Shown here: positions 3,167 through 45,859 of the stretch, one piece after another
How the letters are laid out: every line of letters begins with the position of its first letter
Numbering within the stretch: position 1 is the first letter of the stretch
From: Mycobacterium colombiense CECT 3035
GTDB taxonomy: Bacteria > Actinomycetota > Actinomycetes > Mycobacteriales > Mycobacteriaceae
NCBI RefSeq assembly: GCF_002105755.1
Contig: NZ_CP020821.1
Coordinates: 620,001 to 684,000, forward strand
Length of the DNA stretch: 64,000 nt
Reading direction: 5' to 3'
Made by a program: the position numbers and the translations under genes
Notes under the pieces: generated by a model
Told to the model about the DNA's origin: nothing
What the model saw: the letters and a program-made list of their open reading frames with translations, nothing else
Database searches by the model: none

Positions 3167-3421
3167 AGACGTTGTCCTTGGGTCATCGAGCTGATCAATC
3201 CCACCCTAGTGCGGGAGGGCCGGCTCTTGCAGCGCAGGATTTCGGGTACCCACGGCCGGCAGGAGTGAAAATTACGCGCCCGTCGAAAGCGCTTAACATT
3301 CAGTTCGGAAATCTGGGAAAAGTCTGCGGGAACGGACCCGCGGGCAGGCCAACACCACAACGCGGTCTACCATCGTCTGTAGTAGATGCTGCGCGCCGCT
3401 GCGACCCCAAGGAGTTATTGC

Positions 3422-10612: not shown

Positions 10613-10730
10613 CAGAGCAGCGTAGCCGCCGGACGTGCGGCGTCACTGCGCCGCCGCGAGTCGCACTGCATGTGAGCAGCGCAACGCCAGGACAGGGGAC
10701 CCTTGCTAGACCGATCCCCGGAATTGCGTC

Positions 10731-41907: not shown

Positions 41908-42303
41908 TCAGGGGCGCGGCGTGGGCGACGCAGGCGTCGGCGCCGGCGGTGTCGGGAGTCCCTCGCCCGGGGGCGGCGGCCAGAAGCCGCGCGGGGGCGC
42001 CGGCGGCCCGGGCGGGGCGAATCCGAAACCACCCGGCATCGGCCCGCCCATCGGCGGGGGCGGCGGACCGTGAAACGGCGCCGCGAACCCCGGCGGCGGC
42101 CCGGGAGGCGGCGGCGGGGGCGGCCCGACGCTGACGATCCAGGCGAAGGCGATCGCCGCGACGGTGCCGACCGCGCCGAGCAGCACGCCCGCGACGCCGG
42201 CGCCGATCACCACGCCGGTGGGATGGCGGCGCCGCTCGGGTGCCTGGTGGGCGACCGGCGCCGGCGCCGGTGGATTGGTGTTGATGTCGTCGTTCGTGGT
42301 CAT
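41908..42303 (-). CDS. Proline-rich single-pass membrane protein
   Basis: 131 residues: a 29-residue cytosolic N-terminus (MTTNDDINTNPPAPAPVAH), one membrane helix (TGVVIGAGVAGVLLGAVGTV), then about 70 residues that are almost half proline with Gly and Phe (GPPPPPMGGPMPGGFGF). No domain. Such proteins are usual in mycobacterial envelopes and hard to assign. It is divergent from the two-component system at 42567, and a CTGAAG direct repeat lies 24 bases upstream of its start, so it may be a target of that system. Confidence 0.75.
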   Translation of the reverse strand: MTTNDDINTNPPAPAPVAHQAPERRRHPTGVVIGAGVAGVLLGAVGTVAAIAFAWIVSVGPPPPPPPGPPPGFAAPFHGPPPPPMGGPMPGGFGFAPPGPPAPPRGFWPPPPGEGLPTPPAPTPASPTPRP

Positions 42304-42326
42304 GCCACGGACGTTAAGAGCCGGGG

Positions 42327-42343
42327 CTGAAGTGGATCTGAAG
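42327..42343 (+). promoter_or_regulatory. CTGAAG direct repeat, site 1 (putative response-regulator box)
   Basis: CTGAAGTGGATCTGAAG, two identical hexamers 11 bases apart, 24 bases upstream of the proline-rich membrane protein start. The one-turn phasing is what OmpR/PhoB-type dimers recognise. Confidence 0.55.
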
Positions 42344-42410
42344 AAATCAGCCGCCTGAACGAATGGACCTCATCCGTCACAGTGGCCACCGGAAAAGGCC
42401 AACACCCTTT

Positions 42411-42478
42411 TGCCCGCCTTGGAGCGACAACGCGGTGACGTCAGGGCTCAGGCGAGGTTGTCGCTCAGAGGCGGGCAA
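42411..42478. repeat. Palindromic intergenic element, family A, copy 2
   Basis: Arms TGCCCGCCTTGGAGCGACAA (42411-42430) and the complement of TGCCCGCCTCTGAGCGACAA (42459-42478), differing at two positions. The same arm sequence frames the element at 4393-4473, but the centre differs (GCGGTGACGTCAGGGCTCAG here). Confidence 0.7.
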
Positions 42479-42527
42479 TCGGCACATACCTCTCCCTCTG
42501 TGACGAAGATGAGGGGATGCCAAAGGC

Positions 42528-42544
42528 CTTCAGGTTCGCTTCAG
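42528..42544 (-). promoter_or_regulatory. CTGAAG direct repeat, site 2
   Basis: On the minus strand it reads CTGAAGCGAACCTGAAG, again two perfect hexamers with a five-base spacer, 22 bases upstream of the response-regulator start. Probably autoregulation. Confidence 0.6.
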
Positions 42545-42566
42545 CACCGGTGCCGACAATGGGGGT

Positions 42567-43277
42567 ATGACGGTTTGCGCACGTGCCGGCGGCGACTTCA
42601 GCGTCGGCACGCCGCGGGTGCTGGTCGTCGAAGACTCCGAGACCATCCGGGAGATGGTCAGCGAGGCGCTCGCCGATGTCGGCTATCACACCGACACCCG
42701 CCGCGACGGCGAAGGCCTGGAAGAGGTTCTCGACGGGATGCGGCCCGACCTGGTGGTGCTCGACGTCATGCTGCCGGGGCGCGACGGGTTCGAATTGATC
42801 GACGTCGTCCGCGAATGGGGTGACATCGGGATCGTCCTGATCACGGCGCGCGACGGACTGCCCGATCGGCTGCGCGGACTCGACGGCGGGGCCGACGATT
42901 ACGTCATCAAGCCGTTCGAGCTGGCCGAACTGGTGTCGCGGGTCGGCGCGGTGCTGCGCCGCCGCGGCCGGCTGTCCCAGGTGATCCAGGTGGGCGACGT
43001 CACCCTGGACCTCGGCGCCGGCGTGGCCGCGCGCGGCGGTCACCGGCTGGATCTGACCGCGACCGAGCTGCGGGTGCTGGCTTTCCTCGTGGAGCAGCGC
43101 GGCCGGATCGTCAGCGCGGGCCAGATCCTGAACGGGGTGTGGGGCTACGACGCCTACGACCCGAACCTGGTCCAAGTTCATGTCAGCGGGCTGCGGCGCA
43201 AGCTCGAGGCGCACGGGCCGCGGATCCTGCACACCGTGCGCGGCATCGGTTACCGGCTGCGGGCCGAGCGGTCATGA
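42567..43277 (+). CDS. OmpR-family response regulator
   Basis: 236 residues. Receiver domain (about 17-130) with acidic pocket VVEDSE, phospho-acceptor D66 in LVVLDVMLPG, switch residue Thr in LITARDG and K115 in YVIKPFE. The C-terminal winged helix (about 140-233) has LDLTATELRVLAFL and the recognition region YDPNLVQVHVSGLRRKLE. The ATGA overlap with the kinase gene couples translation. The signal is unknown; the orthologue is not obvious in the tal-lipL block of M. tuberculosis, so this TCS is probably an accessory insertion. Direct repeats CTGAAG-N5-CTGAAG near the promoter are a plausible binding site. Confidence 0.93.
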   Translation: MTVCARAGGDFSVGTPRVLVVEDSETIREMVSEALADVGYHTDTRRDGEGLEEVLDGMRPDLVVLDVMLPGRDGFELIDVVREWGDIGIVLITARDGLPDRLRGLDGGADDYVIKPFELAELVSRVGAVLRRRGRLSQVIQVGDVTLDLGAGVAARGGHRLDLTATELRVLAFLVEQRGRIVSAGQILNGVWGYDAYDPNLVQVHVSGLRRKLEAHGPRILHTVRGIGYRLRAERS

Positions 43278-44758
43278 CGGCCGCGTCGACGACGCCGACG
43301 CCGTCGCTGCAGCGCCGCGTGACCCTGGTGGTGCTGGCGCTGCTGGCCGTGCTGCTGGTGGTGCTCGGAGTCACCATCGACATCACGATGGGCGTTCTGG
43401 CCCACCGCAATCTGCACGATCGGCTCTTGGCCGCGACATCGCGCGCCGACGCGTTGAGCGCCGCGCACACCTCACCCGATCTGCTCGCTGCCGAGCTCAA
43501 CGGCGGCGGGATCCGGGCGCTCGTGCTCACGCCCGACGGCACCGCGTACGGCGACCGCGGGATCAGTCCCGAGCTGAGCGACGGCGACGTCGAACCGCCA
43601 CCGTTGTATCCGCCACCGCCACCGCCACCGCCGCCTCCGTACCCGCCACCGCCATACGCGCCAGCGCCGCCGTACCCGCCACCGCCATACCCGCCACCGC
43701 CGCCGCCCGGCCCGCCGCCGGATGCCACCGCGACGGCCGTCGTGCACCCGCTGCCCGGTGGCGGCCGGGTGATCCTGGTCGCCGACACCACGCAGACCAC
43801 CCAGGTCGCACATCAGTTGCGCGGCTTGATGATCGGTGCGGGTCTGGTGACCCTGCTGCTCGCGGCGCTGCTGCTCATCGCGGTCAGCCGGGCGGCCCTG
43901 CGCCCGCTGGATCGGCTCACCGCGCTGGCCAAGGCCATCACCACCGGCGATCGCGGCCGGCGGCTGCACCCGGATCGCGCGGATACCGAACTGGGCCGCG
44001 CCGCAACCGCATTCGACGGCATGCTGGACGCGCTGGAACTGTCCGAACGCCGGGCCCGGCACGCCGCCGACACCGCGCAGCGCGCGGAGACGGCGACCCG
44101 GCGATTTCTCGTCGACGCCGCCCACGAATTGCGCACCCCCATCGCCGGCATTCAGGTCGCCGCCGAGCAGGTCGCGCACAGTGCCTCCGAACACCACGAC
44201 GACGGGCAATATCGCCGGGCGAGCCTGTTGCTCTCTGACGCCCGCCGCGCCGGACGGCTCGTCTCCGACATGCTCGACCTCAGCCGCATCGACGCCGGGC
44301 TCGCGCTCGAGCTGCACGACGTGGACGTGGCCGCCGTGCTCGACGGCGAAGTGGACAGAGCCGCGATGCTGGCACCGCAGGTCAGCGTCACGCGCACCGG
44401 TTTGACCACGCTGCATCTCGACGCCGACGCGACCCGGCTGTCGCAGATCGTGTCCAACCTGCTCGACAACGCCCGCCGGTTCACACCGGCGGGCGGGGCT
44501 ATCACCGTCGACCTTCGCGCACCCGAGGGCGTCGCGGAAATCACCGTCACCGACACCGGCCCGGGCATCCCGGATGACCAGCGGGACAACATCTTTGAGC
44601 GCTTGGTCCGCCTGGACCCGGGCCGCGCCCGCGACCACGGCGGCGCCGGGCTGGGGCTGGCGATCGCGCGGGCGCTGGCGCGCGCCCACGGCGGCGAACT
44701 GGTCTGCCTGCCGCATCGGGGCGGCGCACAATTCCGCCTTACGCTGCCGCGGGTGTGA
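43274..44758 (+). CDS. Sensor histidine kinase with proline/tyrosine-rich extracytoplasmic loop
   Basis: 494 residues, ATG at 43274. Membrane helix 1 (about 17-40), extracytoplasmic region 41-180, helix 2 (about 183-206), HAMP (about 205-255), HisKA with phospho-acceptor H284 (DAAHELRTPIAG), and HATPase with N box NLLDNARRF, G1 DTGPGIP and G2 GGAGLGLAIA. Residues 107-149 are nearly all Pro and Tyr in PPPYPPPP-like units, encoded by short CCGCCACCG repeats, an unusual sensor element. The remaining periplasmic sequence has no recognised ligand domain. Its cytosolic part is complete, so it should be active. Confidence 0.93.
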   Translation: MTAASTTPTPSLQRRVTLVVLALLAVLLVVLGVTIDITMGVLAHRNLHDRLLAATSRADALSAAHTSPDLLAAELNGGGIRALVLTPDGTAYGDRGISPELSDGDVEPPPLYPPPPPPPPPPYPPPPYAPAPPYPPPPYPPPPPPGPPPDATATAVVHPLPGGGRVILVADTTQTTQVAHQLRGLMIGAGLVTLLLAALLLIAVSRAALRPLDRLTALAKAITTGDRGRRLHPDRADTELGRAATAFDGMLDALELSERRARHAADTAQRAETATRRFLVDAAHELRTPIAGIQVAAEQVAHSASEHHDDGQYRRASLLLSDARRAGRLVSDMLDLSRIDAGLALELHDVDVAAVLDGEVDRAAMLAPQVSVTRTGLTTLHLDADATRLSQIVSNLLDNARRFTPAGGAITVDLRAPEGVAEITVTDTGPGIPDDQRDNIFERLVRLDPGRARDHGGAGLGLAIARALARAHGGELVCLPHRGGAQFRLTLPRV

Positions 44759-44781
44759 CGCCGCGACGGTAGGAAGTCAGC

Positions 44782-44798
44782 CTGAAGCCGACCTGAAG
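44782..44798 (+). promoter_or_regulatory. CTGAAG direct repeat, site 3
   Basis: CTGAAGCCGACCTGAAG, same architecture as the two upstream sites, in the 58-base gap between the convergent kinase and protease genes. The position, downstream of both, is unusual for a promoter site; it may be fortuitous or reflect an antisense or internal promoter. Confidence 0.45.
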
Positions 44799-44816: not shown

Positions 44817-45794
44817 TCAGCCCGGGGCGGCCGGCGCGGTCACGGCGGTCAGGTGCCACTTGTCCAGCCAGGGCCGCACCAACTCGGCGACGGAGAACTT
44901 CGCCCGCGCCGCGCACCCGGCCTTGGCGGTATGGGGGTCGCCGCCGCGAATGAGGATCCCGACGGCGCTGACGGTGCCGTCCTTTTCGTTCAGGTACACC
45001 GGGCCGCCCGAATCGCCGCACCGGCCGCTCGCCAGGAATACCACCTTGCTGCCGGTGATCTGAACGATTTGTCCGCACGCATCCGTGCCGGACCCCATCC
45101 CGAACTTGCACAGCTGCTGGCCGATCACCAGGTTGGTGGCGACACCGCTGACCGGCAACGACGAGGCGATGGCCGGGGACCGCGGAACGTTGTCACCGTC
45201 GAGCGTGATCAGGCCGATGTCGTGCTGTTCGTCGTGGACACCCTCGTTGACCGTCTCGGTGAACGTGCCCAGCGTCGCGTAGGGCAGAACGCCGCCCAGG
45301 TTCATCGTCACCTTGCTGCGTTCCCCGGGGCGGTTGCAGTGCCCGGCGGTGAGGATCCCGGCCCCGCCGCTGCTGGTGTGCACCAAAAACCCTGCGGTGC
45401 AGCCCATTCCGCCGGATCCGTCAGCGTAGTCGACATAGATTCCGGCGCCCGGGCCCGCGGCGCTGGCGGCGGGCAGATCGATCGGCGCCAGGACGGGCGG
45501 CGGAGGCGGCGGCGGCTGCTGCGCCGAAGTGGCGGTCTCGGGGAACAGGCAGACGGCCGCCACCAGGGCGCCGATGCTGCACACCACCGCGAGGGTGAGC
45601 AGCGAGGTGTGGACCTTGGCGCGGCGCGGCTGCGCGCTCATGAGGGCGCGCAGGCTCCTCTTGGGCTTGCGCCGCCGCTCGTCCGGACCGGGCAGGAAAC
45701 CCATCACGGCGAGCACCGCCAGCACCAGGGCGCTCAGCGGCAACGCGACGGTACGAGCCGGCGAGTACCCCGTCCCCCAACTCGCGACCTCCAT
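44817..45794 (-). CDS. Membrane-anchored trypsin-like serine protease
   Basis: About 325 residues, start at ATG 45794 (MEVASWGTGYSPAR; GAGAGGG eight bases upstream) with 45812 as alternative. Two hydrophobic segments (about 17-34 and 63-84), a linker with seven consecutive prolines (about 94-100), and a chymotrypsin-fold protease domain from about 115. The catalytic triad is H152 (TAGHC), D192 (HDIGLI) and S262 (GRCGDSGGP); three cysteine pairs can form disulfides (GCTAGF with AGHC, QLCKFG with TDAC, SGRCGD with KAGC). It resembles streptogrisin/trypsin-like exported proteases of actinobacteria. A long open frame continuing to 46751 on this strand is an artefact. Confidence 0.85.
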   Translation of the reverse strand: MEVASWGTGYSPARTVALPLSALVLAVLAVMGFLPGPDERRRKPKRSLRALMSAQPRRAKVHTSLLTLAVVCSIGALVAAVCLFPETATSAQQPPPPPPPVLAPIDLPAASAAGPGAGIYVDYADGSGGMGCTAGFLVHTSSGGAGILTAGHCNRPGERSKVTMNLGGVLPYATLGTFTETVNEGVHDEQHDIGLITLDGDNVPRSPAIASSLPVSGVATNLVIGQQLCKFGMGSGTDACGQIVQITGSKVVFLASGRCGDSGGPVYLNEKDGTVSAVGILIRGGDPHTAKAGCAARAKFSVAELVRPWLDKWHLTAVTAPAAPG

Positions 45795-45859
45795 CGCGTA
45801 CACCCTCTCCATTAGACCGATGTTTGGCGCACCGCGCGGCGGTCTGACGAAGTTGGTGA

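Follow-up and report, generated by a model that had tools for sequence, protein, structure and literature searches.

Among described regulators, PhoP of Mycobacterium tuberculosis, likewise a member of the OmpR/PhoB family, resembles the system reported here, which lies in a 64,000-nucleotide stretch of the Mycobacterium colombiense CECT 3035 genome (contig NZ_CP020821.1, positions 620,001 to 684,000; hereafter the window) and consists of a response regulator, a sensor histidine kinase and three copies of a tandem direct repeat, CTGAAG-N5-CTGAAG. The passages of PMC3413638 that deal with the PhoP repeats DR1 and DR2 describe 9-base-pair (bp) direct repeats 2 nucleotides (nt) apart, which gives an 11-bp period, and boxes over or near the -35 position of lipF and pks2, from which class II activation was suggested. 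PhoP differs in its repeat sequence, in having a third repeat and in the 87 target genes proposed for it in those passages, as against three sites at one locus here. The pho box of Escherichia coli PhoB likewise replaces the -35 element, as mentioned in the same part of PMC3413638; PhoB differs from the present system in sequence, signal and targets, and the regulator studied here does not reach the NCBIfam PhoB cut-off (172.7 against 296.2 bits). M. tuberculosis PrrA shares the domain architecture and is the regulator's best sequence match in the PDB (162 bits), which is the level of a paralogue: the regulator matches kept from the genus reach 251-472 bits when scored against the one in the window. 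The PmrA/BasR box, made of CTTAAT-like N5 repeats, has the same hexamer-N5-hexamer form and 11-bp period as the present box. It differs in its half-site, and this regulator, at 139.8 bits, falls far under the 330 bits of the PmrA cut-off. No description of this two-component system or its box was found in the literature searched for it. The system is a new instance of a kind of regulation already known, that of the OmpR/PhoB type.

Very probably, the locus encodes a self-contained two-component system whose box is private to it, and through this box the regulator would activate a proline-rich membrane protein gene and its own operon. The kinase would sense an envelope signal and phosphorylate the regulator, a dimer of which would bind two 11-bp tandem repeats located at the -35 position. 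By analogy with the family, the bound regulator would then recruit sigma-A polymerase to a -10 element placed 10 nt downstream, that is, by class II activation. Two of the sites would serve genes here, one for the divergent membrane protein and one, by autoregulation, for the regulator-kinase operon. The features concerned are as follows.

41908..42303, minus strand: gene for a proline-rich single-pass membrane protein (PRM), 131 amino acids, the predicted target of box 1
42311..42316, minus strand: -10-like hexamer TAACGT, 10 nt past box 1 and 7 nt ahead of the PRM ATG
42327..42343, minus strand: box 1, CTTCAG-N5-CTTCAG, profile E value 5e-7
42528..42544, plus strand: box 2, CTTCAG-N5-CTTCAG, profile E value 8e-4
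42555..42560, plus strand: -10-like hexamer GACAAT, 10 nt past box 2 and 6 nt ahead of the regulator ATG
42567..43277, plus strand: response regulator, 236 amino acids, OmpR/PhoB family, receiver and Trans_reg_C domains
43274..44758, plus strand: sensor histidine kinase, 494 amino acids, Pfam HAMP, HisKA and HATPase_c, joined to the regulator by an ATGA overlap
44766..44771, minus strand: -10-like hexamer TACCGT, 10 nt past box 3 and directed into the 3' end of the kinase gene
44782..44798, minus strand: box 3, CTTCAG-N5-CTTCAG, the best profile score in the genome, E value 1e-8

The tandem repeat and its predicted promoter layout

The initial annotation had placed CTGAAG-N5-CTGAAG, with perfect half-sites, at 42327-42343 (plus strand), 42528-42544 (minus strand) and 44782-44798 (plus strand), and a motif search returned these positions and strands without change. 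Its remark that no other copy was noticed is true of the window and also of the entire genome, whose 5,581,643 bases contain 3 exact matches, all at this one locus, and 1 match to the reversed-pattern control. Rarity across the genome had been set beforehand as a test, and the motif is rare in this genome: from the base composition of the window, 0.28 exact matches are expected per genome and 1.2e-4 within the 2,472-bp span, and the Poisson probability of three copies in that span is about 3e-13, prior to correction for the choice of motif. A survey of the window for exact hexamer pairs in tandem, with any spacer of 0-15, gave three families with at least 3 copies inside 2.5 kb, namely this one and two of CCGCC(A/G) repeats, found mostly in proline-rich coding stretches. 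Allowing up to 2 mismatches raises the genome count to 169 sites, as against 297 for the reversed control, so that the near-matches appear to be noise. The window has 5 such sites for 2.45 expected, a number reached in 11 of 100 shuffles. Four sites with 1 mismatch (genome positions 398703, 1747680, 2336247 and 4119457) lack a TANNGT hexamer at the correct place, and box plus -10 with up to 3 mismatches occurs at control level, 12 times in the genome (the three sites included) against 14 in the control.

Read on the opposite strand, each site is CTTCAG-N5-CTTCAG followed exactly 10 nt downstream by a -10-like hexamer. Because the -10 lies 7 nt from the ATG of PRM and 6 nt from that of the regulator, leaderless transcripts are predicted for both. 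The relevant part of PMC6448022 names TANNNT as the preferred -10 of M. smegmatis and puts leaderless transcripts at 24%. No TTGACA/TATAAT-type promoter was found in the region. The predicted layout is that of OmpR/PhoB-activated promoters: the tandem direct repeats follow one another at about one helical turn, with an 11-bp period borne out by the spacing controls below, and the site replaces the -35 element at a fixed distance from the -10, as in class II promoters, with less regularity on the regulator side. PRM itself, which matched no Pfam or NCBIfam family, is built of an arginine-rich stretch, a transmembrane segment and a polyproline tail.

The regulator has the two domains of the OmpR/PhoB family, PF00072 (85.8 bits) and PF00486 (80.8 bits), both above gathering score. 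Besides the PhoB and PmrA models it stays below the NCBIfam equivalog cut-offs for MtrA (186.9 against 300 bits) and CseB (159.6 against 350 bits), and no NCBIfam cut-off was reached among the best 25 of its 91 matches or among the best 25 matches of the kinase.

Boxes 1 and 2 flank a 22-bp inverted repeat (42410-42478), which is 91% complementary with a 25-nt gap. The 101 bp around it have 26 matches in the genome at E <=0.01, its own place counted and some matched on both strands, and it thus looks like a dispersed palindromic repeat lying between two promoters. No Rfam family matched this region at gathering score.

Conservation of the box across the genus

A search for the regulator in 396 genomes of the genus (E 1e-70) gave 147 matches, spread over 141 genomes. 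The analysis of 144 loci (loci are denoted L and genomes G) covers 145 of the 147 matches and 139 genomes; L243 spans two matches, of which the better was counted. The short loci L157 and L176, in genomes G270 and G379 and outside this set, also have the box and a -10-like hexamer. In 129 of the 144 loci the 1 kb preceding the regulator contains a box. The spacing test and the regulator tree used 81 of the 144 loci, 73 of which have the N5 spacing; none of the remaining spacings between 0 and 14 occurs in more than 5. A looser pattern also gave N0 (42 of 144 loci) and N11 (24 of 144) spacings, which were rejected as mostly internal repeats of the N5 box: 42 of 46 N0 sites, 22 of 24 N11 sites and 9 of 12 N8 sites lie within 25 nt of an N5 box. 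The consensus consists of two 11-bp units, CTTCAG-GTTCA and CTTCAA-GTTCG.

The distance to the -10 is equally regular on the side of the divergent gene, where a box is present in 126 of the 144 loci and is followed in 118 of these by ANNNT at offset 10; at any other offset ANNNT follows at most 8 boxes (offset 16). TANNNT is found at offset 10 in 99 of 130 divergent-side boxes; at offsets 4-17 other than 10 it occurs once altogether. On the regulator side a box is present in 57 loci, and GACAAT stands at offset 10 in 19 of the 144.

The box also keeps company with the regulator. Of the 141 genomes with the regulator, 93 have the bare box, as do 62 of the 255 without it (Fisher 5e-16, relatedness ignored), and regulator-positive genomes hold 179 copies against 61 of the reversed control. 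Box + N11 + TANCGT occurs in 88 of the 396 genomes and its reversed control in none (0/396); 84 of 141 regulator-positive genomes have it, as against 4 of 255 regulator-negative ones (Fisher 4e-42, relatedness again ignored). The box is thus predicted to be dedicated to this regulator, to which it is specific by spacing, by position and by its distribution across genomes. In Actinomycetospora, Williamsia and Rhodococcoides, boxes with at most 1 mismatch stand upstream of regulators 56-67% identical to this one, and those of L052 and L058 adjoin a divergent Gly/Pro-rich reading frame; none was found at one Williamsia locus, L060. No M. tuberculosis record was among the 80 loci listed from a capped search with six short peptide patterns, which at most agrees with the view in the initial annotation that these genes have no recognised counterpart in the equivalent M. 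tuberculosis block. Gene order and relatives suggest that the window belongs to a slow-growing nontuberculous mycobacterium close to the M. avium group.

A profile was built from 63 boxes, with the window and its eight closest loci left out of training. Training required a -10-like hexamer, and three letters of the -10 are therefore fixed by selection, as they are in the 59 boxes of the sequence logo. From the window's genome the profile retrieved exactly three sites, copies 3, 1 and 2 in order of score (E values as listed above). The next site has E 0.97, and nothing better was found beyond the three (150 of 2363 first-look candidates scored), so that the predicted regulon is one locus. That the regulator would have an OmpR/PhoB-type box of its own, as first proposed, is supported at the sequence level by the co-occurrence, the spacing, the -10 controls and this leave-clade-out profile.

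Additional boxes were observed at a few loci. At L045 (Mycobacterium yunnanensis, position 3177) and L304 (position 5001) a further box, with TAGCGT at offset 10, lies upstream of a reading frame for a basic protein with KAPAKK repeats. L237 has a similar box at -2764, and L048 has a second divergent box pair (10670-10724) about 4.7 kb downstream of the regulator, adjoining an aquaporin-like gene (named by eye).

The third site, predicted target genes and polyproline sensors

Box 3 sits between the 3' ends of the convergent kinase (plus strand) and protease (minus strand) genes, 18 bp from the stop codon of the latter.

44817-45812, minus strand: trypsin-like protease, Pfam Trypsin 25.3 bits (gathering score 20.6)

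The protease, in which a transmembrane segment and a Pro-rich linker were recognized by eye, adjoins the kinase in many loci; it scores 40.9 of the 175 bits required for the NCBIfam Rv1815 family serine protease, a distant relation. Copy 3 does lie between kinase and protease, as the initial annotation had it, and since it is placed between the 3' ends of convergent genes it is not upstream of the protease. The regulon first proposed accordingly keeps its boxes upstream of the proline-rich gene and the regulator and loses the protease as a member. As a candidate target the protease was rejected, the window having no box upstream of it and copy 3 being oriented away.

In relatives, the corresponding site precedes a small minus-strand gene, here called SPR, that lies between the site and the kinase. 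Its product, which opens with a stretch resembling a signal peptide and continues as a polyproline chain, is predicted to be a small secreted proline-rich protein; the gene follows box 3 in, for example, L035, L188, L238, L245, L291, L295, L297, L300 and L301. From the kinase stop to the -10 measures 430 bp in L238, where SPR is present, against 7 bp in the window (44758 to 44766). SPR was not found at this locus, and elsewhere in the genome there are only weak matches, the best with E 7e-5 and 47% identity. The third site therefore looks like the promoter of the relatives' SPR with the gene missing here; as a top-scoring site without any gene found, it looks orphaned. L182 retains the site and gave no SPR match in the search, yet SPR-like DNA aligns there. 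If active, box 3 would yield an antisense transcript into the 3' end of the kinase gene. At L292 in G282, a close relative (97% mutA identity across the 300 amino acids compared), the copy-3 promoter is kept beside the protease without an orthologous regulator, and a reading frame resembling a nonribosomal peptide synthetase (by eye) lies about 3 kb downstream.

Target genes were classed by a simple script (transmembrane hydropathy, Pro runs, PPE/PE signatures), which missed some genes. PRM-like genes stand downstream of the box in many loci, with similar N-termini and transmembrane segments; their common plan is a charged or Pro-rich N-terminus, an arginine-rich stretch, a glycine-rich transmembrane segment and a polyproline tail. 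For one clade of 10 regulators the box leads to PPE or PE genes in 9, the tenth (L228) having no box within 1 kb, and for a separate clade in 3 of 4, the fourth (L226) having a PE-like frame that the script left unclassed. In G319, a genome of one contig, a box (L290, genome position 4708738) lies upstream of PRM-like and SPR-like genes about 2 Mb from the regulator, whose own locus, L200, has no box inside 1 kb; this remote site makes action in trans possible.

The sensor part of the kinase has two transmembrane segments and a polyproline segment.

43595..43720, plus strand: polyproline segment in the sensor part of the kinase; 42 Pro precede the H-box, 10 of them in the longest run

In 80 loci the sensor has 20 or more Pro ahead of the H-box, and the targets are Pro-rich in 72 of them, PE/PPE in 0 and unclassified in 8. 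The 40 loci with fewer than 20 Pro have 18 PPE, 2 PE and 2 Pro-rich targets (L348, L352), and 18 other or none; a further 24 loci without a readable sensor have 16 Pro-rich targets and 8 none. Both kinds coexist in G060 and G230, at L208 and L195 (39 and 32 Pro, PRM-like target) and at L234 and L235 (16 and 16 Pro; PE and PPE). On the regulator tree, which has 81 rows, two changes are needed to account for the low-Pro label, and well-supported branches force only one; independent sensor/target events are few. This distribution suggests a pairing of polyproline sensors with polyproline targets. At the regulator loci L196 and L207 the kinase is truncated and a kinase core was not matched.

A bolder joint reading, which we consider doubtful, is that polyproline sensor and envelope target form a matched, mutually signalling pair in which polyproline codons act as a gene-fusion joint. 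Proline-rich products would share the sensor's envelope layer and feed back on the sensor; where the targets are PE/PPE, the sensor would be without polyproline; and an inversion in three draft genomes would have joined the target's membrane anchor in frame to the kinase core. Of the 128 loci for which a kinase core was scored, 3 (L258, L335 and L339) encode it on the other strand from the regulator; none of the 55 loci from genomes of at most 10 contigs does. In-frame PRM::kinase chimeras running through polyproline codons were read in L258 (6600-8800; equivalent to L042, on the same contig), L033 (4400-7031) and L339. These loci are from draft assemblies and contain no N, and exact inverted repeats reach 12 bp at most in the stretch of L258 that was searched; the rearrangement in L335 is of another kind and lies at the end of a contig. 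Between PRM and the kinase gene in the window, inverted repeats are imperfect (longest 46 nt, 72%), with no exact one above 13 bp. The idea of an invertible switch is put forward as a lead and not as a claim.

Alternative explanations and significance

Several observations weigh against a private activator box. No box was found inside 1 kb at 15 of the 144 regulator loci. The bare motif occurs in regulator-negative genomes as well, where its 81 copies show no excess over the 106 of the reversed control. On the regulator side the -10 is less regular, since TANNNT follows no box there at offsets 4-17 and ANNNT is divided between offset 10 (20) and offset 11 (18) among 58 boxes. Furthermore, G282 (3 contigs) and the many-contig drafts G357 and G103 keep box and -10, and their best response regulators are 43-45% identical, which is paralogue level; box and -10 also persist in G062, whose contig ends within the kinase. 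A chance cluster of three copies, with which the missing excess at 2 mismatches would agree, is nevertheless a practically negligible possibility, given spacing and position conserved across 129 of 144 loci, the three exact copies in a genome expected to hold a fraction of one, the empty reversed control for box plus -10, and the independent profile. An extracytoplasmic function (ECF) sigma factor might instead read the repeats as its -35 and TASCGTC as its -10, the two-component genes being merely among its targets. ECF -10 elements often contain CGTC, and the divergent-side -10 is often TA(C/G)CGTC, a likeness partly fixed by site selection; such a promoter is highly improbable all the same, because 11-bp tandem repeats fit a head-to-tail dimer, the regulator-side promoter of this clade has GACAAT at the same distance, and presence of the box tracks the regulator gene.

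The sign of control is less firmly fixed, as the box overlaps the polymerase footprint and its position alone does not tell activation from repression. The regulator could bind as a repressor that covers the -35 position and, until dephosphorylated, keeps polymerase off; we regard this as unlikely, since the divergent-side -10 spacing is exactly 10 nt and no sigma-70-type -35/-10 pair was found in the region, as expected if the regulator replaces the contacts of sigma region 4. For copy 3, a working antisense promoter that lowers expression of the kinase is a somewhat stronger contender, if still an improbable one: the site is the top-scoring one in the genome and is directed into the 3' end of the kinase, but in relatives SPR stands between the same site and the kinase, and retention of the sequence after a recent loss requires no function. 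Regulation of the protease by copy 3 would be suggested by the 18 bp that separate the site from its stop codon and by the adjacency of protease and kinase in many loci; with the site at the 3' end of the gene, oriented away, and no box upstream of its start in the window, we think this very unlikely.

The proposed private activator box yields a DNA code that can be tested and, for a system that 141 of the 396 sampled genomes of the genus possess, a list of targets confined to one locus. It also offers a natural case in which a promoter box appears to be conserved while its target differs, being either a proline-rich membrane protein or a PE/PPE protein, or is lost, as seems to have happened in this genome. 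The match between sensors and targets may in addition serve as a lead on the role of polyproline stretches in mycobacterial envelope sensing.

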